10,000 bases of DNA from Chloroflexota bacterium (GTDB lineage Bacteria > Chloroflexota > Anaerolineae > Anaerolineales > Villigracilaceae): NCBI GenBank assembly GCA_020217065.1, contig JAIWOB010000004.1, positions 1-10,000 of the forward strand. The letters are read 5' to 3'. Within the stretch, counting starts at the first letter, position 1; every line of letters starts with the position of its first letter. This document shows positions 1-10,000 of the stretch, in pieces. The translations under genes were made by a program, and so were the position numbers. The notes under the pieces were generated by a model that did not search any database, was not told where the DNA came from, and worked only from the letters and a program-made list of their open reading frames with translations.

Positions 1-572
1 TATTCGAGCAAACCCGTCGCGTGCGAGTCGTCCTCCGCGCCGGTGGGGTCTCCCAGAACGTCGGGAAGCAACCGCGAAACGGCGTCAATCAAAATCAGGG
101 CGGGAAGTTCGCCGCCAGTCAAGACATAATCGCCGATGGAAATTTCATCCGTTACCAGACGCTCGCGGATACGCTCGTCAATTCCCTCGTAGCGTCCGCA
201 AAGCAGGGCAATGCGCGGATACTGGGAAAGTTCTTTGGCGATGTTTTGATTGAAAACCCGCCCCTGAGGAGAAAGCAGGATGATGGGAACGGAATTAACA
301 GATTCAGACGGCTCCCTCTGGCTTGCGCCCGCAGGGATGGATAAGCCTAAAACAGTTTCCACCGCCTCGAAAATGGGTTCAGGCTTCATCACCATTCCGC
401 CGCCGCCGCCATAGGGGGCGTCGTCTGTGGTATGGTGTTTATCGTGAGCGTAGTCGCGGATGTTGTGGAGGCGCACGTCAATCAATCCCCGCTCTCGGGC
501 GCGTTTGAGAATGCTGGTGTCGAGATAGGGTGGAAAGATTTCGGGCAGGAGCGTAAACACCTCAAATTGCAT
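1..572 (-). CDS. trmD: tRNA (guanine-N1-)-methyltransferase, 5' part (C-terminus beyond window)
   Basis: TrmD methylates N1 of G37, next to the anticodon, in tRNAs reading CNN-type codons, using S-adenosylmethionine; this suppresses +1 frameshifting. The 190 visible codons start [13 protein letters not shown] and carry the family landmarks: [15 protein letters not shown] (residues 52-66), the SAM-knot segments LLSPQGR (99-105), [13 protein letters not shown] (123-135) and [11 protein letters not shown] (149-159), and an EDDS segment (180-183) that should hold the catalytic Asp equivalent to E. coli Asp169. The glycine run has G where many relatives have A. The last visible residues, GLLE, normally precede a YPQYTRP-like motif, so roughly the final fifth lies outside the window. 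No ribosome binding site precedes the ATG; instead an extended -10 box sits just upstream (see the promoter entry). The nearest gene upstream on this strand is the YtxH-like gene, 154 bp away. The family assignment is secure. Confidence 0.96.
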
Positions 573-726
573 AAGGCGATTCTAGCATAGAAAATCCGCC
601 CTCGCGCCGCCGACGGGGCTGCCCTAGCCGCCGCCGTGGATTTTCAAGAGGCGAATCATATTGCCGCCACGACGACGGCGTTGACTTGACGGCGCAGTTT
701 CTATTTTGAGATAAACCCTGCGCGGG
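573..726. other. Intergenic spacer between ytxH-like gene and trmD
   Basis: This 154-bp GC-rich spacer has no supportable gene. Besides the trmD promoter it holds a small 5-bp hairpin (714-728, AACCC/GGGTT) that overlaps the stop codon of the upstream gene but has no U-run, so it is not a convincing terminator. It also holds two direct copies of GACGGCG separated by seven bases (about 674-694). Nothing else is recognised. Confidence 0.5.
579..587 (-). promoter_or_regulatory. Extended -10 promoter of trmD, apparently leaderless
   Basis: On the minus strand, TGC-TAGAAT matches an extended -10 element (TGn followed by a TATAAT-like hexamer). The hexamer ends six bases before the A of the trmD ATG at 572, so the expected transcription start is the A of the ATG itself. 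No convincing -35 hexamer is present at 16-18 bp spacing, which fits an extended -10 promoter. No Shine-Dalgarno sequence lies between the box and the ATG. The placement is seen in the sequence; leaderless transcription is inferred. Confidence 0.5.
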
Positions 727-945
727 TTATCCCTCTCTCGGCGCGCGCAGCGTTTCCAGCCGTCCGCGCAATTCGATGCGGCGCGAGTCCGCCGCCTGGC
801 GAATTTCGCCAAAGAAAGCCTGCCCGCGCTCGCGAAGTTGTCCGCGCAGTTTTTCGCCCGCCTCAGGCGCCAACAGCAACGCCACGACAGAACCGACCAG
901 CGCCCCCGTCAACACTCCGATTAGAAAACCAAACATTCGCCGCAT
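727..945 (-). CDS. YtxH-like small membrane protein
   Basis: A 72-residue protein with one transmembrane segment (about residues 4-26, FGFLIGVLTGALVGSVVALL). It is followed by LLAPEAGEKLRGQL, the signature of YtxH/gas-vesicle-GvpP-like proteins (APxxGxxxR), then a charged, probably helical tail (residues 31-72) rich in Arg and Glu. YtxH proteins are single-pass proteins of poorly known role, often linked to general stress; the predicted topology is N-terminus at the membrane with a cytoplasmic tail. The start at 945 is chosen because AAGGAG stands seven bases upstream and a TATAAT box lies 40 bases upstream. The reading frame runs back to an ATG at 1056, but that would put the start inside the end of the preceding gene with no ribosome binding site. 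It is probably a monocistronic gene. Confidence 0.82.
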   Translation of the reverse strand: MRRMFGFLIGVLTGALVGSVVALLLAPEAGEKLRGQLRERGQAFFGEIRQAADSRRIELRGRLETLRAPREG

Positions 946-952
946 ATCATTT

Positions 953-958
953 CTCCTT
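953..958 (-). promoter_or_regulatory. Ribosome binding site deciding the ytxH-like start
   Basis: AAGGAG on the minus strand, seven bases before the ATG at 945. It fixes the start of the 72-residue protein instead of the longer in-frame start at 1056. Another ATG at 950-948 is out of frame and too close to the site. Confidence 0.8.
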
Positions 959-984
959 GGCTGGTTTTTTGTTTGTTCGACGCG

Positions 985-990
985 ATTATA
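985..990 (-). promoter_or_regulatory. -10 box (TATAAT) for the ytxH-like gene
   Basis: A perfect TATAAT on the minus strand, giving a predicted transcript start near 978 and a leader of about 33 nt that contains the AAGGAG site. The -35 region at 17-18 bp spacing is a poor match to TTGACA, so strength and factor dependence are uncertain. It lies in the 88-bp gap after the NACHT-FGE gene, so the small gene need not depend on read-through. Confidence 0.5.
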
Positions 991-1033
991 CTTCATGGAC
1001 TTGCCCGACAGCGCGAAAAACAGGGATATTAAT

Positions 1034-4000
1034 TCAAACGGCAATTTTTTTTGCAATTGTTACACGAAAGCCAATAGTTTGGTGAAAATCCAACGGCGTA
1101 TGACGGTCGCGCGCCGTGGCGCGGCATTGAACAATGGGTTTATTGATAAAGCCCTCTTCGGCATTGGCGACATCAGAGTCCCATGAACCGCCGCGCATGA
1201 CTTTTGCTACGACTCTTTTCTTGACGTTTTTCTCAACACGGGGATTTAAAACGGGCTTTCCTTCTGTTTTGCGTTCACTGTATTCGAGTTCAGAATACCA
1301 GTCAAAACACCACTCGCGGACGTTGCCAGACATGTCGTTGAGGAACAGACCGTTTTTCGTCGCGCCGTTGGGGAACATGCCCACGGGAGTTGTCACGCCC
1401 ATCGAGTTGACGCCTTTATTATTGCATACGTTCACATCGCTTACTTCATCTCCCCAGGGCCATAATCCTGTTACAGTAAACCTTTTTCTATGCGGATTGT
1501 AATTCCCCGCCCTGGCGGCTCTTTCCCATTCGGCTTCGGTGGGCAGGCGCGCTTCTTCTTCAGAGGTAATTGCGCCCTCCGCCCTCATTTTTTGGGTTAA
1601 CCAATTGCAATAGGCTTCAGCCTCATACCAACTGACGCCCACAACCGGCAAAGAGAATTGATTCCATTTTGGGCTATCCCAGAAAAAAGGGCGACGCCGT
1701 TTTTCAGGGGGACGAGACGCAAGTAAAGATTTTAATTGTTCTTTTTCACGCTCCGTATCGCCGGTGAGATATGAAAAATCCGGCTCTAAACTTCCTTTTA
1801 GCCACTTGACGCCTTCTTCGCTCCAAAAGTCCGAATCGAGGGCGTAACCTCCCTCTTCTACAAAGAACGAGAAATCTAAATTCGTGACAAGATTTTTTGA
1901 TATTTTGTATTCAGAGAGGAAAACCAAATGCGCGGGGCGCTCCCACGGTTTGAGGCGAATTACCTGACCAGGCGCTATTTCATATTGCAAAGCCTTTTCT
2001 GTATTTTCAGGCGCTCCCATCATAAAACTTCCCTCTTGAACGACGGCGAAATCCTGTTCAACCCGCTCTTTTTCCCATGGCTTTCTAGCGCGACGGGCGG
2101 TCAACTTTCCAAGCGCAATTCCAATGGCGCGTCTCTCCTCAAACGCTCCTCTCGAATCTTGCATTTTCCGCCTCATAACGTCTTTGAGAAAAGATTCCGC
2201 GTCGTTTTTTGACCTGACCGCCAGACGGGAAGGCAATTCAAGAATAATGTCGCCGGCTAGTTCCAGCGCCGCGCTGTCGCCAATTTTGGCGATTGTTTCA
2301 ATAAAGTCAATCAAATTTGATTCGCTGACAATAGAAAGAGCGCCTGCCGCCAATGTGAGAGTTTCGCGCCAATTATCGTTGCGATAATATTTACGAATTA
2401 ACGTATCCCATTCCTTTTGTTTTTCCAGGGCAATGTATCTGCCCGCCAAATATTCGCGAAACGTGGAGTGACTGTAAAATCCGTAATAATTACCGCGTCG
2501 CTCCAACAAATCGCCCTGGTCGCCAATTTGATGGATAAAGTTTTCGGCGTCTTTTTTGCCCTCTTTCTCTTGATTTTCTTCGCTGTCGTCCGCATAGCGG
2601 GAGCCAAAATATTGCGACGTTTTCTCAATTAATTCAGTTTCTTGCAGACCGTTCCTTGCGCTTTGTTGCAGTTCATAAGCGATGGGCATTAACGCTTTGA
2701 CTTTATCCGTCCAAGTCATACCAATTAGCCCTGTTAAGTCGCTATGATGCAGGCTATCGAGAATGACCTCGATAGCCTGCTCGTACAATTCCGCGCGGCT
2801 ATTAGGAAGTTTACGACGATTATTTTTAAGATAGCAGGCAATGGCAAGCATTAAGGGAGTGGAAGCCAGCAATTGAACCTGATTAGAGCTGTTTTTAATT
2901 TCAACTTCCAGCTCTTGCGCGCTTTTATCTGGATTTTCCGCCCTTTGATTATTTCGAAACCAATTTTCAACAAAGCGCTTTCGTTCCGTGTCGGCAAGGG
3001 GTTGTATTTGATAAGGCTCAAAATCCTTTAAAATAAACTTTCCCCGATACGCGCTGTCTCGCGAAGCGACGACAAAACGATTCCTTTTATTCCCGCTAAA
3101 ATCGGAAACAAATCGCTCAATGGCAGAATTCAGTTCTCCGCGTTTTTCTTCAAGCGCTTCGTCAAACCCGTCAAACAGGACGATGCAGCCGCTCTGCGCC
3201 GGCGAAAGGAGAGTTTCCAAAAAAGCGTTTGAAATCTTGCTCAATTCATGGTGGTTGTTTTGCAGGCATTTACAGCCAAACTCTAAAAGAGACTTCGGGG
3301 TGATTTCCGTCTTATGTTCCACGCAATCTACCACATAATCTTTAAGGGAAATGGCGACGGGGACGAGCGCAGGCATGTCTGAACCGGAAACCGCATTAAC
3401 GACCTTTCTCTGTTCAGGCGTTAGCGCTTCGGGCTGTTTAAGAGCCTTCAACATGGACAACCCAATCCATTTCATCGTCGTGCTTTTGCCGCGTCCCGCC
3501 GCGCCAAGAAGCGTTATGCAGTTTGACGAGAAAGCGTCCGCCAGGTCAAGGTCAGCGGGAGTTTCGAGAGGCGCTTCTTCGCCGTCGCGGAAATCATGAA
3601 GAGCAAAGACGGAAATAGGTTTGAGACGTAAAGGAATGTAAACGTCATCCAAGCGGGGCGCAAACCCCTTTACCCCGCCATAATCTACTTTGAGATAATC
3701 AGGAAAAACGGAGGCAATGTATTGTTCCCTCATCTCGTCAAATGTTTTAGGGCGCGGCTTGTCTTCCATCGACGCGGGGGGCGGATGAATAATCACCGTT
3801 CCCGAATTCGCGCCAATTTGAACGTTATTTCCATTCCCTCCAGCCCTTTGTTCAACCGAAGAGGTTGAAGGGTCGTTTGGGCGCGGCGGACGACTGCGAA
3901 ACGCCTTCACCGTTTCAATCACAATCCAGCCGACTACAACCAAAACGCCCACATCATAAATCAAGTTAACGTATACGCCGCTATTTTCTTGCCTCAAGAC

Positions 4001-4084
4001 AAGCCATATCAAAATGACCAAAAACGCGAAAGGGGCGGTAAGTTTTTTGGCAAGCGTTGGCAGAATTTTTCTAAACGACTCCAT
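1034..4084 (-). CDS. Membrane-anchored NACHT NTPase fused to FGE/SUMF1-like domain (NLR-like)
   Basis: A 1016-residue protein. Order of parts: two transmembrane helices (about 17-31 and 40-59); a polar linker with a Gly/Asn-rich NNVQIGANSGTVIIH stretch (86-100); a NACHT NTPase with Walker A GAAGRGKS (194-201) and Walker B IVLFDGFDEA (301-310); an ASR sensor-like segment (340-342); the NACHT helical/winged-helix landmarks LLASTPLMLAIACYL (405-419) and FYSHSTFREYLAGRY (536-550); and a C-terminal FGE-sulfatase/SUMF1 domain (about 676-1010) with VQEGSFMMG, VVGVSWYEAEAYCNWL, RLPTEAEWERAARAG, WPWGDE, SGNVREWCFDW, MRGGSW and GFRV. NACHT proteins are nucleotide-driven oligomerising switches, several of them anti-phage in bacteria. 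The FGE-like domain lacks the catalytic Cys pair and is probably a sensor or binding module (inference). The start has CAGGAG six bases upstream. The gene follows the ABC transporter by 61 bp and is AT-richer than its neighbours, suggesting transfer. Domain calls are secure; function is not. Confidence 0.9.
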   Translation of the reverse strand: MESFRKILPTLAKKLTAPFAFLVILIWLVLRQENSGVYVNLIYDVGVLVVVGWIVIETVKAFRSRPPRPNDPSTSSVEQRAGGNGNNVQIGANSGTVIIHPPPASMEDKPRPKTFDEMREQYIASVFPDYLKVDYGGVKGFAPRLDDVYIPLRLKPISVFALHDFRDGEEAPLETPADLDLADAFSSNCITLLGAAGRGKSTTMKWIGLSMLKALKQPEALTPEQRKVVNAVSGSDMPALVPVAISLKDYVVDCVEHKTEITPKSLLEFGCKCLQNNHHELSKISNAFLETLLSPAQSGCIVLFDGFDEALEEKRGELNSAIERFVSDFSGNKRNRFVVASRDSAYRGKFILKDFEPYQIQPLADTERKRFVENWFRNNQRAENPDKSAQELEVEIKNSSNQVQLLASTPLMLAIACYLKNNRRKLPNSRAELYEQAIEVILDSLHHSDLTGLIGMTWTDKVKALMPIAYELQQSARNGLQETELIEKTSQYFGSRYADDSEENQEKEGKKDAENFIHQIGDQGDLLERRGNYYGFYSHSTFREYLAGRYIALEKQKEWDTLIRKYYRNDNWRETLTLAAGALSIVSESNLIDFIETIAKIGDSAALELAGDIILELPSRLAVRSKNDAESFLKDVMRRKMQDSRGAFEERRAIGIALGKLTARRARKPWEKERVEQDFAVVQEGSFMMGAPENTEKALQYEIAPGQVIRLKPWERPAHLVFLSEYKISKNLVTNLDFSFFVEEGGYALDSDFWSEEGVKWLKGSLEPDFSYLTGDTEREKEQLKSLLASRPPEKRRRPFFWDSPKWNQFSLPVVGVSWYEAEAYCNWLTQKMRAEGAITSEEEARLPTEAEWERAARAGNYNPHRKRFTVTGLWPWGDEVSDVNVCNNKGVNSMGVTTPVGMFPNGATKNGLFLNDMSGNVREWCFDWYSELEYSERKTEGKPVLNPRVEKNVKKRVVAKVMRGGSWDSDVANAEEGFINKPIVQCRATARDRHTPLDFHQTIGFRVTIAKKIAV

Positions 4085-4145
4085 GATGCGCTCCTGTATA
4101 AAATGCTCAAGCCCCTTGTTTTAACCTGGCGGTTATTTTACCTTT
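4085..4145. other. Short spacer between ABC transporter and NACHT-FGE gene
   Basis: This 61-bp AT-rich gap has no intrinsic terminator; only a weak 5-bp TAACC/GGTTA hairpin is present. It contains the NACHT-FGE ribosome binding site CAGGAG, six bases before the ATG, and an AT-rich TTTATACA stretch that could be a weak -10 box without a clear -35. Read-through from the ABC gene is therefore plausible. Confidence 0.45.
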
Positions 4146-5969
4146 TTATTCCCAAATTTCATTCTGTCTCATCCTTCCCTCTTCCACATACGAAAGACTC
4201 TGATGTCTGAAATACGTGTTATACAATTCGGCGTAATGACCGCCTTGCCGCAGCAATTCGTCGTGATTGCCCTGCTCGATGATGGCGCCTTTCTGCATGA
4301 CGACGATTCTATCCGCCGCCTTGACGGTGGAGAGGCGATGAGCAATGAGGATGCTGGTGGTGTTTTTCAAAATCAAATTCAACGCCTGCTGGATTTGCCA
4401 CTCGGTGAACGGGTCAATGCTGGCGGTGGCTTCGTCGAGGATGAAGATGGCGGGGTTTTGCGCCAGCACGCGCATGAGCGCCACCAGTTGACGTTGCCCC
4501 ATCGAGAGGCGGTTGCCGCGTTCGCCCACGGGAGTCTGCAAGCCGTCAGGCAGGGTCTCCAGCCATTCGCCGTCGCCAATCTTCCGCGCCAGCTTCAACA
4601 TTTCGGCTTCAGGCACGCCAGGCATGGCGTAGCGGATGTTATCCGCAACCGTCCCTGAGAAAAGGAACGGAACCTGCGAAACAATTCCCAGTTGGCGGCG
4701 GTATTGAATCAGGTCGAAGGTGCGGATATCGCGCCCGTCAATGAGCAATCGTCCGCCCTGGAATTCGTAAAAGCGGGCAATCAACTTCGCAATGGACGAC
4801 TTCCCCGCGCCCGTATGCCCAACAAGGGCAAGCGTTTCTCCCGGCTGGACGCTCAAATTGAAGCCGCTCAAAATAGGTTCCTTGTCGCTGTAGTGAAAGT
4901 CCAAATCTTCAAAGCGCACCTCGCCCTTCAAGCGCGGCACATCCAGCCGTTCGAGTTGAATCACATTCGGGTCGGCGTCAATCAACGCGAAGACTCGCTC
5001 CGCCGCCGAAAGCCCGCCCTGAATCTGCGCCCAAAAGGAGGTCAGGTTGAGGACGGGGAAGAAGAACTGGTCGAGGCTCATGATGAAGAGATACCACGCG
5101 CCAACGCTGACCAGTCTCTGCTCGGCGCTCATCCCGCCGACGTAGATGAGGACGCCGACGAAAATCCCCGAAAGCGCGTTGAGCGTGGGAAAGACCAGCG
5201 AAAGCACAAACCCGCGCCGAATGTTGACCCTGTACGACTGCTGGTTCGACTCGTCGAACGAGAGGAAGACGCTCTCCTCCTGCCGAAAATTCTTCGCAAT
5301 CGAAATGCCGCTGATGGTTTCCTTGATGGCGGCGTTGACATCGGACATGGCTTTCATCCCGCGTTTGGTCACCTGCCGAGCCAGCGCGCGGAATCCAGCC
5401 GCGACGGCGAAGATGACGGGCAGAAACGAAAGCAGCAACAGCGAGAGTTTCCAGTCGGTGCGGAAGAGGACCACGCCGAGAATCACGGCTTGGACGATTT
5501 GCGAAACCACGTCGGTGACGATGACGATGAGTTGACCGAACTCGTTGGTGTCGGACGTAATACGCGAGACGATTCTCCCCGACGAGAACTGGTCGTAGAA
5601 TGAAAGGTCATGCTCCGCTGCGGCGCGGAAGGCGCGGGCGCGCAAGTCGAGGACCACATCGCCCACCGCGCGGACAATGAGACTGCGCCTCAGCCAATTC
5701 AACCCCCACAAGCCGACTCCCACCCCCATCAGAACCCCGCCCACCGCCGCAATGGCTGGCAGCGTCGGCTGTTCCCCAAGCATATCCACCATACGGCTGA
5801 CCGCCACCGGCAGCGCCGCCCCGATGAAAGCAAGGATGAGCACAACAACGGAGGCGAGCGCCAGCCTGCGCGCCTGCGTTTTAAAGAATCCAAGAATCCG
5901 CCGCGTCAGTTCACGGTCGGAGTATTGGCGGTCGTATTTTTCGTCGTTGAGACCTGCAAAAAAGCCCAT
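4146..5969 (-). CDS. ABC transporter half-exporter (membrane domain fused to ATPase)
   Basis: A 607-residue type IV (exporter-fold) half transporter. The N-terminal transmembrane domain (about residues 35-325) has hydrophobic segments near 36-58, 73-92, 145-170, 174-193, 255-277 and 290-308. The nucleotide-binding domain (about 350-585) has every catalytic motif: Walker A GHTGAGKS (384-391), Q-loop Q432, signature LSMGQ (488-492, a variant of LSGGQ), Walker B IFILDE (508-513), D-loop SID (517-519) and H-loop H544. Both ATP sites of a homodimer would be competent and no partner half transporter is present, so a homodimer is likely. The substrate cannot be told; relatives export lipids, drugs or peptides. 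AAAGGA stands five bases before the ATG. The gene is insulated from valS by a terminator, has a possible -10 box at 5998-6003, and is followed after 61 bp by the NACHT-FGE gene with no terminator seen between them. Confidence 0.93.
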   Translation of the reverse strand: MGFFAGLNDEKYDRQYSDRELTRRILGFFKTQARRLALASVVVLILAFIGAALPVAVSRMVDMLGEQPTLPAIAAVGGVLMGVGVGLWGLNWLRRSLIVRAVGDVVLDLRARAFRAAAEHDLSFYDQFSSGRIVSRITSDTNEFGQLIVIVTDVVSQIVQAVILGVVLFRTDWKLSLLLLSFLPVIFAVAAGFRALARQVTKRGMKAMSDVNAAIKETISGISIAKNFRQEESVFLSFDESNQQSYRVNIRRGFVLSLVFPTLNALSGIFVGVLIYVGGMSAEQRLVSVGAWYLFIMSLDQFFFPVLNLTSFWAQIQGGLSAAERVFALIDADPNVIQLERLDVPRLKGEVRFEDLDFHYSDKEPILSGFNLSVQPGETLALVGHTGAGKSSIAKLIARFYEFQGGRLLIDGRDIRTFDLIQYRRQLGIVSQVPFLFSGTVADNIRYAMPGVPEAEMLKLARKIGDGEWLETLPDGLQTPVGERGNRLSMGQRQLVALMRVLAQNPAIFILDEATASIDPFTEWQIQQALNLILKNTTSILIAHRLSTVKAADRIVVMQKGAIIEQGNHDELLRQGGHYAELYNTYFRHQSLSYVEEGRMRQNEIWE

Positions 5970-5997
5970 GAGCGTCCTTTGACTCGAATTAAGGCGA

Positions 5998-6003
5998 ATT
6001 GTA
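5998..6003 (-). promoter_or_regulatory. Possible -10 box (TACAAT) for the ABC transporter gene
   Basis: TACAAT on the minus strand directly after the valS terminator, giving a predicted start near 5991 and a short leader holding AAAGGA. No good -35 hexamer is seen at usual spacing, so the call is tentative. It rests mainly on the need for a promoter after the terminator. Confidence 0.3.
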
Positions 6004-6007
6004 AATC

Positions 6008-6045
6008 AAAAAAACCTCCAAAGTCTTCGAGACTTCGGAGGTTTT
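6008..6045 (-). terminator. Rho-independent terminator of valS
   Basis: On the minus strand a 16-bp stem (one G-U wobble) has arms AAAACCTCCGAAGTCT and AGACTTTGGAGGTTTT around a 3-nt CGA loop. It ends in a run of seven U. It begins a few bases after the valS stop codon and separates valS from the ABC transporter gene. On the plus strand the hairpin is followed by only four T, so termination is mainly in the valS direction. Confidence 0.92.
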
Positions 6046-6048
6046 GCG

Positions 6049-8766
6049 TTACTTCAACTGCGCTTTGATTTTCTCTGCGGTCTCCTTATACCCCGCCAAT
6101 TTCTCGCGCTCCCTGGCGACCAGCGCGGCGGGCGCTTTGTTGACAAAATCGCTGGCAAGGAGTTTCTCCAGCCGCTCAATTTGGGATTGGGCTTCCTTCA
6201 ATTCCTTTTCGAGACGAGGCTTGTCGGCGGCGGGGTCCGCCATCCCCGCCAAAGGAAGGTAAATTTCCACCGAGCCAACCACAAGGGCAACCGCATCGGC
6301 GGGTTTTTCTTTCAGAGACGGGTGAACAACAACTTGAGACGGGTCAAGACCCGCAAGCGAGGCGATAGTCTGCGCCTGTTCTTTGAGCAGATTCGCCTTG
6401 TCGCCGGCGACGAATTGGGCGGCGAGTTTCCTGGATGGGGCGACAGATTTTTCCGCCCGCAGGTTGCGGATGGAACGCACGATTTCTTGAACGAGGGCGA
6501 AGTCGGCAATCTTGCCTTCCTCCCAGCCTTCGGGGTCGCGCGGTTCGGGGTAGCGGGCGGCAATCAGCATCTCGGACCAGTCTTGAGCAAGATTGGAGAG
6601 CGGAGATTGCAGGATTGCCGTCTTCAGATGTCCCCACACTTCCTCGGTCACAAAGGGCGTGAAGGGATGCAGCAAACGCAAAGCAATATCGAAGACTCGC
6701 GCCAGCGTTACGACTGTCTGTTCTCTAGTCTCCGTTCTTTTCATCTGCTCTTTGGCGACTTCCACGTACCAGTCCGCAAAGTCAGACCAGATGAACTCGT
6801 AGATTTCCTGCCCCGCCTGCCCATATTGGAAGTTTTGGAACTGCCGCTCGACGTTGCGGATGAGATTTTGGAGTTTCGCCCAAATCCAAGAGTCAGCCAA
6901 AGTCCAGAGCGCAGACGATTGACCGTTGACCGAGCCGCCATTCACGGCCTTCGGTCCTCCGTCCATCGTTTCAATCGCATTGATGACAAACCTTCCCGCA
7001 TTCCAAATCTTGTTGGCGAAGTTGCGGTTGGCTTCCACTTTCTTGACGCTCATGCTGGTGTCGTTGCCGGGCGTAGACCCCACCAACAGCGTGAAACGCA
7101 GCGCGTCCGTACCGAGTTCGTCCATCACAATCAGCGGGTCAATCACGTTGCCCTTCGTCTTGGCCATTTTCTGTCCGTGCTCGTCGCGCACCAGACCATG
7201 CAAATACACGGTGTGGAACGGGGCTTCTCCAGTAAACTCCAAGCCCATCATAATCATCCGCGCCACCCAAAAGAACAGGATGTCGTAACCCGTTTCCATG
7301 TAGGAGGTTGGGTAGAAATATTTGAGGTCGGGCGTTTGGTCGGGCCAGCCCAAAGTGGAGAAGGGCCACAAGCCGGACGAGAACCAGGTGTCCAGCACGT
7401 CGTCATCCTGGCGGATATCCTTCGAGCCGCAGGCGGAACATTCGGTCGGGTCTTCGCGGGCGACGGTCATGTGACCTTCGGGACAATACCAAACCGGGAT
7501 GCGGTGTCCCCACCATAACTGACGGCTGATGCACCAGTCCTTGATGTTCTCCAGCCAGTTGAAGTAAATCTTCTCGAAGCGTTCCGGCACGATTTTGATG
7601 CGCCCGTCGCGGACGGCTTCCAGCCCGGCTTTGGCGAGCGATTCGATTTTGACGAACCATTGTTCCGAAATCATCGGCTCGACAATCTCGCCGCCGCGCT
7701 GGGAACGGGGAATGGTGGTGAGGTACGGCTCGGTCTTGATGACCAGCCCTGCGGCTGCCATATCCGCCCAGAGGTTTTTGCGCGCCTCGAACCTGTCCTG
7801 ACCTTGATACTTACCGCCGTTTTCGTTGACCTTCGCCTCGCGGTCGAGCATGGAGATAATCGGCAGGTTGTGACGCTGGGCGATGGCGTAGTCGTTCGGG
7901 TCGTGGCCGGGCGTAATCTTGAGCGCGCCTGTGCCAAATTCCACGCTGACATAGTCGTCGGCAATGACGGGAATCTCCCGTCCCAAAATCGGCACGACGG
8001 CTTTGCGTCCGATGAATTTCTTGTAACGCTCGTCGTCAGGATGCACCGCCACAGCGGTATCGCCCAAAATGGTTTCAGGGCGGATGGTGGCGACGGGAAT
8101 ATATTCGTCTGAACCGGCAATCATGTATTTGAAGTAATAAAGCGTCGCCTGTTCCTCGCTGTATTCCACTTCGAGGTCGGAGACGGCGGTTTTAAGCCCC
8201 GGCGACCAATTGATGAGGCGCGGTCCGCGATAGATGAGACCCTTTTCGTACAGGCGGACAAAGGCTTCGCGCACGGCGCGGCTCAAGCCTTCGTCAAGGG
8301 TGAAGCGTTCGCGCTCCCAATCGCAGGATGCGCCAAGGCGGCGGATTTGGTTGGCAATCATCCCGCCGTACTTGCGCTTCCACGCCCAGGTGCGTTCGAT
8401 GAATTTCTCGCGTCCCAATTCCTCGCGGGTGATTTCTTCGGTCTTGAGCAGGTCGCGTTCCACCATTAATTGCGTGGCGATGCCCGCATGGTCCGAGCCG
8501 GGAATCCATAAGGTCGAGAAGCCCTTCATGCGGTGGTAGCGAATCATCAAATCTTCCATGCTGACGAACAAGGCGTGACCGAGATGCAGTTCGCCGGTCA
8601 CGTTGGGCGGCGGGATGGCGATGACAAACGGCTTGACATTCGGGTCGAAGCCCGGCTTGTTCGGGTCATTGTGCGGCTTGAAATACCCGCCCTTCTCCCA
8701 CTTCTCATAGATGCGGGGTTCGGTGGATTTGAAATCGTAGGCTTTGGGCAATTCCTGTTTGTTCAT
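6049..8766 (-). CDS. valS: Valyl-tRNA synthetase
   Basis: This class I synthetase attaches valine to tRNA-Val in the cytoplasm and edits mischarged threonine. It has 905 residues, the usual length. Order of parts: Rossmann catalytic core with PPPNVTGELHLGHA (HIGH motif HLGH, 61-64); CP1 editing domain with TIRPETILGDTAVAVHP (228-242); WCISRQLWWGHRIPVW (411-426); a zinc-ribbon-like cluster C428, C443, C446 with H432; the KMSKS-type loop as KMAKTKGN (533-540); an anticodon-binding domain (about 625-790); and a C-terminal coiled-coil tRNA-binding arm (about 840-905). The LPKAYDF/YEKWEKGGYF N-terminus and DVLDTWFSSGLWPF are also typical of ValRS. Ser is replaced by Ala in KMSKS but both lysines are kept. 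The core/anticodon-domain linker (600-618) is encoded by a repeat-like palindrome. GAGGAG lies five bases before the ATG. Expression is controlled by the T-box leader upstream, and the gene ends at its own terminator, so it is probably monocistronic. Confidence 0.98.
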   Translation of the reverse strand: MNKQELPKAYDFKSTEPRIYEKWEKGGYFKPHNDPNKPGFDPNVKPFVIAIPPPNVTGELHLGHALFVSMEDLMIRYHRMKGFSTLWIPGSDHAGIATQLMVERDLLKTEEITREELGREKFIERTWAWKRKYGGMIANQIRRLGASCDWERERFTLDEGLSRAVREAFVRLYEKGLIYRGPRLINWSPGLKTAVSDLEVEYSEEQATLYYFKYMIAGSDEYIPVATIRPETILGDTAVAVHPDDERYKKFIGRKAVVPILGREIPVIADDYVSVEFGTGALKITPGHDPNDYAIAQRHNLPIISMLDREAKVNENGGKYQGQDRFEARKNLWADMAAAGLVIKTEPYLTTIPRSQRGGEIVEPMISEQWFVKIESLAKAGLEAVRDGRIKIVPERFEKIYFNWLENIKDWCISRQLWWGHRIPVWYCPEGHMTVAREDPTECSACGSKDIRQDDDVLDTWFSSGLWPFSTLGWPDQTPDLKYFYPTSYMETGYDILFFWVARMIMMGLEFTGEAPFHTVYLHGLVRDEHGQKMAKTKGNVIDPLIVMDELGTDALRFTLLVGSTPGNDTSMSVKKVEANRNFANKIWNAGRFVINAIETMDGGPKAVNGGSVNGQSSALWTLADSWIWAKLQNLIRNVERQFQNFQYGQAGQEIYEFIWSDFADWYVEVAKEQMKRTETREQTVVTLARVFDIALRLLHPFTPFVTEEVWGHLKTAILQSPLSNLAQDWSEMLIAARYPEPRDPEGWEEGKIADFALVQEIVRSIRNLRAEKSVAPSRKLAAQFVAGDKANLLKEQAQTIASLAGLDPSQVVVHPSLKEKPADAVALVVGSVEIYLPLAGMADPAADKPRLEKELKEAQSQIERLEKLLASDFVNKAPAALVAREREKLAGYKETAEKIKAQLK
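6914..6969. repeat. Imperfect palindrome of degenerate heptads inside valS
   Basis: On the plus strand the segment divides into eight 7-mers. The first three are GACGATT, GACCGTT and GACCGAG; the last three are CTTCGGT, CCTCCGT and CCATCGT. The reverse complement of 6914-6932 matches 6952-6970 at 14 of 19 positions, so the block is an imperfect inverted repeat with a central spacer. It encodes a Gly/Asn/Ser-rich linker at ValRS residues 600-618, between the catalytic core and the anticodon-binding domain, where length varies in the family. It may be a small repeat element tolerated in frame, but copies elsewhere cannot be checked here. Confidence 0.45.
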
Positions 8767-9158: not shown

Positions 9159-10000
9159 CTATTCCGCAATGGGTTTCCACAGCAGGACGGTCCACGTCTG
9201 GCTGGTTTGGGGCATATCCACTTTCAACTCGGCGACAACCGAATAATACTGAGGCAGGCGTTTAACATGGAAAAACGTCGCCTTTTCCTTGACCGTCATC
9301 ACCAAATCGAAATCTTTTCTTTCGACGGAACGGTCGAGAAGCCTTGTATAACGAAAGCCGTCCAATTCCCAATCGGAATACGGAGGTCCTATTAAGTAGA
9401 AATCGGGATAAGGCTGCACGTTGTAATACACCAGCGATTGTCCGGCGTCCACGGGAATCAACCCAAGCTCCACAATTTCCGAGGCGACCAGGGGCGCATT
9501 CAGGATATTTCTGGAACTTCGCACGTAATCGTACAGTTCCGCCCATTCCCGCGAGTCGTTTTGTCGCAGCATCAGAGGATTCAACTCTTTCGATTCCCAG
9601 GCAAAAAGGTTGAACAGCGCCAGCAGAATCATCGCGGTTCGAAATTTATGTTCGAGGTTGAGGCGCTGAAAAAGCCAACAAAAAAAGAGCGGCGTCAGCA
9701 GTTGATAGGCGTAGTTCATGTACGTCCCCATGTGAGAGCCGAGAATCAACAGAAACGCCAGGAGAGAGCAAACAAAGGAAAAGAAAATGTAATTCATGGG
9801 GCGCGGCAGGAAGGGTCGCTTCCAATCGGACGCATTGAACCATTTCTCCGTTTTGCCCGGCGCGGAAGATTGGGCGACCGACCGCAAGTCGTCGGTCAGC
9901 GCAAAAACCGCCAAGAGCAGGGACGGATAGAAATAAAGAAAAAGTTGGTTCAATTGCCGCGCCAGATGCCCAAAAGACCGATAGGCGTTAGAGATATTCC
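9159..10000 (-). CDS. Multi-pass membrane protein, C-terminal part (possibly GT-C glycosyltransferase)
   Basis: The frame is open from the window edge to a TAG at 9159, giving 279 visible residues; the start lies outside. Four hydrophobic segments are visible, at about residues 19-34, 69-88, 93-110 and 120-134 of the visible part. They are followed by a soluble tail of about 145 residues with no membrane segment. The motif-like stretch SHMGTYMNYAYQLLTPLF resembles the late loop and helix of polyprenyl-phosphate-dependent GT-C glycosyltransferases (GT39/GT83-like), where a conserved Tyr-rich turn precedes a helix with a Pro, and such proteins often end in a soluble domain. This is a resemblance judged by eye, not a firm family call. 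An in-frame TTG at 9953 is an unlikely start because coding-like sequence continues upstream of it. No terminator fits between its stop and the valS promoter. Confidence 0.75.
   Translation of the reverse strand, partial: NISNAYRSFGHLARQLNQLFLYFYPSLLLAVFALTDDLRSVAQSSAPGKTEKWFNASDWKRPFLPRPMNYIFFSFVCSLLAFLLILGSHMGTYMNYAYQLLTPLFFCWLFQRLNLEHKFRTAMILLALFNLFAWESKELNPLMLRQNDSREWAELYDYVRSSRNILNAPLVASEIVELGLIPVDAGQSLVYYNVQPYPDFYLIGPPYSDWELDGFRYTRLLDRSVERKDFDLVMTVKEKATFFHVKRLPQYYSVVAELKVDMPQTSQTWTVLLWKPIAE

Follow-up and report, generated by a model that had tools for sequence, protein, structure and literature searches.

A membrane-anchored NACHT-FGE protein of a Chloroflexota bacterium, related to targets of diversity-generating retroelements and carrying an apparently fixed sensing tip

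The DNA analyzed here, referred to as the window, is a stretch of 10,000 nucleotides from a Chloroflexota bacterium (contig JAIWOB010000004.1 of assembly GCA_020217065.1), in which an open reading frame on the minus strand (1034..4084) encodes a protein of 1016 amino acids with N-terminal transmembrane (TM) helices, a NACHT domain and a C-terminal FGE domain. This TM-NACHT-FGE gene lies 61 bp downstream of a gene for an MsbA-like ABC transporter and is followed, 91 bp further on, by a small YtxH-like gene, while ValS, TrmD and a membrane protein without a Pfam family (Pfam search) are encoded around it; its GC content is 47.7%, compared to 55.9% in the rest of the window. The source genome (G000) is a 1.6-Mb assembly of 157 contigs with a completeness of 66%. 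The following features were assigned to the window protein:

3995..4045, minus strand: hydrophobic helix 1 (residues 14-30; hydropathy; a helix of low-to-medium confidence in the model)
3896..3976, minus strand: hydrophobic helix 2 (residues 37-63, placed at 40-56 by hydropathy; also in the model), followed by basic residues
3788..3841, minus strand: linker GGNGNNVQIGANSGTVIIH ahead of NACHT (residues 82-99; modelled as disordered)
3617..3742, minus strand: conserved pre-NACHT segment (residues 115-156; alignment and model)
2951..3529, minus strand: NACHT nucleotide-binding domain (residues 186-378; Pfam and structure)
3482..3505, minus strand: Walker A motif GAAGRGKS (residues 194-201; alignment)
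3155..3184, minus strand: Walker B motif CIVLFDGFDE (residues 301-310; alignment)
2096..2953, minus strand: first helical, winged-helix and second helical domains of NLR type (spanning about residues 378-663; alignment and model)
1061..2053, minus strand: FGE-sulfatase domain of C-type-lectin fold (residues 678-1008)
1064..1195, minus strand: equivalent of the variable region of diversity-generating retroelement (DGR) targets, RGGSW...GFR (residues 964-1007)
1133..1171, minus strand: approximate site of 12 extra loop residues (residues ~972-984; low model confidence)

An earlier note on this DNA had described two N-terminal helices, a NACHT domain and an FGE-fold domain in one 1016-residue chain, and hydropathy, Pfam and structure prediction confirmed this arrangement. 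The FGE-sulfatase domain was recognized by Pfam with an E value of 2.7e-40, and PF05729 matched residues 190-378 with 25.9 bits, just under its cut-off of 26.7. Walker A, Walker B, the sensor arginine, the GxP-type proline and the histidine of the winged-helix domain (WHD) are all present and in order; in alignment A2, G194, K200, D305, D308, E309, R342, P410 and H539 are either invariant or conserved to 90% or more. The roles of the arginine, proline and histidine are presumably those of their namesakes, and we take the borders of the WHD and of the two helical domains (HD1 and HD2), as well as the role of the histidine, from NLR structures. In the structure model used here, which was built from an 84-row alignment (predicted local distance difference test score 84.9) and replaced an earlier one from 23 rows (70.6), the nucleotide-binding domain-HD1-WHD-HD2 fold is present and matches NLRC4, NLRP3 and NOD2, while structure comparison assigned the C-terminal domain to the FGE (C-type-lectin) fold. 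The NLR-like plan of effector, switch and sensor proposed in the earlier note is thus borne out by structure, and the predicted tripartite organization is supported as an architecture rather than as a function. Since basic residues come after helix 2, the NACHT-FGE side of the protein would be expected to face the cytoplasm. Only three matches at E <= 0.001 were obtained in the viral structure library (an NLR-named phage protein, an unnamed protein and a clamp loader), which were not informative, and Rfam gave no match at gathering scores anywhere in the window.

A protein search that scored 7,992 candidates returned 186 relatives at E <= 1e-3, the best 120 of which were listed. Together with the publication of STAND plus FGE proteins as a class, in which they are put forward as putative antigen sensors (Dore 2024, PMC10907252, in the excerpts cited here), this number speaks against the unusual domain pairing that the earlier note had suspected. 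The closest relatives form a group of 24 proteins (P0002-P0025; E <= 3.4e-86, 30-35% identity), the next relative following at 2.7e-48. Strong matches besides the window gene itself were found at nine loci (in genomes G053, G005, G063, G260, G313, G254, G223, G379 and G083), of which the G083 locus is a C-terminal piece and the G254 reading frame is one in which no Walker A was found. At two loci (G063 and G223) the contig ends before the variable region, which leaves seven loci readable past the sensing loop. Five of these seven carry a template/variable repeat pair, and the mismatches between the repeats sit almost exclusively at template adenines (18/18, 16/17, 20/20, 11/11 and 10/11; 75/77 in total). 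Avd was detected above its cut-off at all five, and a reverse transcriptase adjoins the cassette at four (G053, G005, G313 and G083). In G053, which belongs to the same genus as the source genome, genes for a reverse transcriptase and for Avd and a template repeat of 127 nt follow the NACHT-FGE gene, and all 18 mismatches are at template adenines. The remaining two readable loci (G260 and G254) have no repeat pair and no reverse transcriptase nearby, and each of these genomes has reverse transcriptase matches on other contigs. In G379, the target, Avd and the template repeat with its 11 adenine-directed mismatches lie at L225 (contig C363, 6030-9882), and no reverse transcriptase match was obtained anywhere in this 97%-complete genome. 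In the proteins, the loop between RGGSW and GFR measures 24 residues in all but one of the 24 close homologs, and E, K, Q, M or W occupy 7 of 299 residues at its 13 mutable positions, compared to 20.4% of residues in the whole proteins.

The G005 gene spans two contigs (L127 and L131; C82 and C62), whose ends overlap exactly by 127 bp. Its DGR cassette lies between homologs of the window membrane protein (9159-9998) and of ValS, a site close to the position of the window gene, which may be a coincidence. A further DGR is present in the same genome at L129 (contig C249), where a reverse transcriptase stands beside a different RGGSW...GFR target with a 121-nt repeat pair of 89% identity, and G005 as a whole gave several reverse transcriptase and Avd matches.

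The window protein likewise ends in a domain of C-type-lectin fold with an RGGSW...GFR segment. Its loop, however, comprises 36 residues, a length shared by no other of the 107 loops measured in the 120 listed proteins; it is 12 residues longer than the 24-residue loop found in 96 of the 107, and it contains five E, K or Q residues. Of its loop codons, 26 of 37 have the form NNY, whereas six kin genes have 19 to 23 such codons out of 25 (counts include the residue after RGGS; a seventh kin gene, that of G005, gave no row); the share in the window gene is thus only somewhat lower, and codons alone do not settle the DGR status. No second copy of the variable segment was found in positions 1-4200 of the window, and the 66%-complete source genome yielded no template repeat (the next best match having an E value of 0.17), no RVT_1 reverse transcriptase and no Avd. 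A DGR acting on the window gene itself was rejected on these grounds, together with the five E/K/Q residues, although a distant DGR could lie elsewhere, since a third of the genome is missing. The gene appears either to have lost a DGR or never to have had one, alternatives between which the tree does not decide, and the sensing tip is apparently fixed. The idea of the earlier note holds in outline, with the defence role still a putative one. While the NACHT-FGE pairing was already known, this combination of DGR kinship with an apparently fixed tip is the more informative point, and one beyond the reach of the earlier note. That the FGE-like domain might be the ligand sensor, as put forward in the earlier note, is suggested by the correspondence of its loop to the region that is DGR-mutated in close relatives.

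A second type of NACHT-FGE protein (P0044 type, about 880 amino acids) occurs in 35 of 57 genomes of the genus. At its loci (L236-L265, e.g. G053:C233:14832-17468) the 24-residue loop IGYQWFARSSFCNWSIPLMFNDDL is almost invariant: among the 26 loci, out of 30, that were readable at this point, 16 are identical and ten show one to three differences, and no frame resembling a reverse transcriptase was seen in these short loci. A TM-like stretch ahead of Walker A is missing from all 37 listed P0044-type proteins whose N-terminus can be read. Judged from these sequences, the paralog appears to be a locked counterpart of the DGR variable regions. The window protein might similarly be a locked receptor, that is, a membrane-anchored member of a hypermutated NLR-like family that lost its retroelement and whose extended tip became fixed as an innate sensor. 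We regard this as doubtful, but as worth testing, since variable and locked tips share related scaffolds within one genus. If it were true, one scaffold would serve in a single genus as both a variable and a fixed receptor, in a manner resembling somatic versus germline-encoded recognition.

The N-terminal modules of the family are exchangeable. Two of the 24 close homologs start at Walker A and could not be judged; TM-like helices precede Walker A in 21 of the other 22, the sole exception being P0013, which has a TIR domain and no such helices. In seven wider relatives, picked for their listed domains, TIR, SIR2, trypsin-like, metallophosphoesterase, HATPase or DUF4062 modules are found ahead of NACHT or FGE, and DUF4062 has been described as an anti-phage NADase in the cited excerpt of a 2026 preprint (PMC13174449). 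Because modules are swapped at this place, the helices of the window protein sit in the effector slot, in agreement with the position that the earlier note had given them. They may act as the effector, possibly by disrupting the membrane, though an anchor role fits equally well.

Strong homologs are patchily distributed, as the earlier note had anticipated for a defence gene: including the source genome, they were found in 3 of 57 genomes of the genus and, at E <= 1e-50, in 9 of 400 genomes of the order, and the three nearest species by the ABC transporter gene (92-94% identity) contain weaker matches only. In a 46-row tree calculated without the variable region, the window protein is sister to all other rows of the close group (98/98), with a long branch (1.37) and a deviant composition.

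Within the limits of the excerpts cited, several published systems resemble the window protein. It shares a central NACHT/STAND domain and a C-terminal FGE-type C-type-lectin domain with the DGR-diversified STAND/NACHT-CLec sensors, and its kin share with them Avd, reverse transcriptase and the two kinds of repeat, template and variable. TIR or peptidase domains form the N-terminus of some of the published targets (PMC10907252). Their sensor role is a proposal, and an anti-phage role was still uncharacterised in early 2024 (PMC10907252). The window protein differs from these sensors in the lack of a detected DGR in its 66%-complete genome, in its 12-residue-longer loop with E, K and Q, and in its two-helix N-terminus followed by a VxIG linker. 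The tripartite effector-NACHT-sensor plan and the NACHT motifs recall the bNACHT proteins. In the tested members described in PMC12169576, however, SNaCT or NCH1 stands at the C-terminus in place of FGE, and the N-terminus is a nuclease or unrecognised rather than TM. FGS effectors of the VMAP ternary systems likewise combine an FGE/FGS domain with varied domains, invariably placed on its N-terminal side, and DGR association (Kaur 2020, PMC7159879), but the vWA-MoxR partners of those systems (PMC7159879) are absent from the annotated genes of the window. TvpA (2y3c) has in common the use of this fold as a variable-protein scaffold. A literature search joining bacterial NACHT, anti-phage and SUMF1 found no paper.

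Taken together, we consider it somewhat probable that the protein is a membrane-anchored STAND (NACHT) receptor with the FGE/C-type-lectin domain as the sensor of a ligand (antigen). It is best read as a membrane-anchored relative of the DGR antigen sensors with a tip whose sequence is apparently fixed, and probably as an intracellular alarm receptor. At rest, the receptor would carry adenosine diphosphate (ADP) and lie on the cytoplasmic side of the membrane. Once a cytoplasmic ligand, most likely a phage protein, had bound to its lectin-fold tip, the NACHT switch would be set free and the protein would oligomerise, clustering its N-terminal helices; these could then affect the membrane or bring in a partner, leading to growth stop or cell death. 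The longer and apparently fixed tip suggests recognition of one constant ligand, whereas many kin would keep the tip variable by DGR.

A number of observations weigh against this receptor model. Of the 21 TM-bearing kin, 13 have two well-separated hydrophobic stretches, which look by eye like a signal peptide followed by a proline-rich stretch and a single TM helix, and the other eight have one such stretch, a pattern that suits an anchor role. One target of one published NACHT-CLec pair is predicted to be periplasmic (PMC10907252, in the cited excerpt), so that cytoplasmic sensing is not assured. The function may also have shifted, given that the protein is a deep and long-branched sister of its kin. 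PADLOC gave nothing convincing for the protein itself (PtuA, E 0.003), and the anti-phage NACHT models of NCBIfam scored far below their cut-offs (EruA 19.6/1000 and DS8 17.5/790 bits). Finally, among 67 proteins beside the window gene and the kin loci, PADLOC (run with no control set) revealed no complete defence system, so that the defence-island location considered in the earlier note is not evident; 37 models had matches, each of the 25 listed being hit by one or two proteins, and the listed models, for which the output does not name the matching proteins, stand largely for general enzymes, DinG and dGTPase among them.

The anchor-like N-termini of the kin are also what would be expected of a membrane-tethered regulator or stress sensor that binds a host or metabolic ligand and signals to partners, its helices serving only as an anchor and no cell death ensuing. 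The mostly housekeeping-type surroundings of the loci read point in the same direction, and so does the TM-less paralog, which has a nearly invariant tip, is present in 35 of 57 genus genomes and suggests a constant ligand more than an arms race. We nevertheless consider such a regulator rather unlikely in view of the patchy distribution and GC deviation, the DGR repeats in kin tips and the swapping of effector domains. A receptor for kin or self-recognition in a multicellular bacterium has been put forward as an alternative for DGR-diversified sensors, with filamentous chloroflexi among the named hosts (Dore 2024, PMC10907252, in the cited excerpts), but contact sensing is unlikely for a tip that would be cytoplasmic, which makes this alternative very improbable here.

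Drift of a former DGR target after loss of its DGR would account for the long branch, the longer loop with its E/K/Q residues and the failure to find DGR parts in the incomplete genome; however, the reading frame is open over its full length, the NACHT motifs are intact and the core residues of the FGE domain are conserved, so that a decaying relic is quite improbable. In principle, the FGE fold could point to a working FGE-type enzyme joined to a NACHT switch. In FGE, a cysteine pair binds copper. Unlike FGE/SUMF1 (PDB 6s07, 1y1e), the window protein lacks this pair: a profile alignment shows nothing that corresponds to the cysteines of SFLC...YC in 6s07, the first position falling into the variable loop, and the only cysteines of the FGE domain are C826, C887, C926 and C987. 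Enzyme activity was therefore rejected, and a fused enzyme is extremely improbable.

Among the related scaffolds of the genus and its relatives there are membrane-anchored receptors whose tips are DGR-mutated, one whose longer tip is apparently fixed, the G379 cassette, for which no reverse transcriptase was found in the genome, and a TM-less paralog with an almost invariant tip. Comparing the ligands and phenotypes of these receptors would directly test whether NACHT-FGE tips are antigen sensors, and would ask whether hypermutated receptors can retire into fixed innate ones.

The pre-NACHT linker (3788-3841 of the window) contains a VQIG core like that of RHIM at residues 88-91. An exact GNNVQIG-coding pattern matched only the gene itself in the 66%-complete genome, and a VQIG-type core occurs in 1 of 95 wider relatives and in no other close homolog. 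Linkers resembling '..VxIGG....SxIIH' precede NACHT in wider relatives, and a loose [VI]x[VI]G pattern was present in 49 of the 95, in some cases in unrelated stretches. The candidate RHIM/BASS motif was dropped, since such VxIG-like linkers are common in wider relatives and the exact pattern revealed no partner in the incomplete genome.

With regard to genomic position, a second ABC gene stands alongside in 11 of 11 ABC stretches of relatives, from which ValS and TrmD are absent, and none of 20 TrmD stretches of relatives contains other window genes. In the window (4146-8766), the ABC transporter adjoins ValS and lacks the ABC partner seen in relatives. Given these differing surroundings, the gene lies either at a rearranged spot or, less likely, at a chimeric join. 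Two contigs are given for the protein in the search listing, the longest measuring 146 kb. Among the kin loci, genes for a HepT-MntA toxin-antitoxin pair are located in G063 (L128:7845-8802) and a gene for a BrnA antitoxin in G379 (L225:10026-10358).
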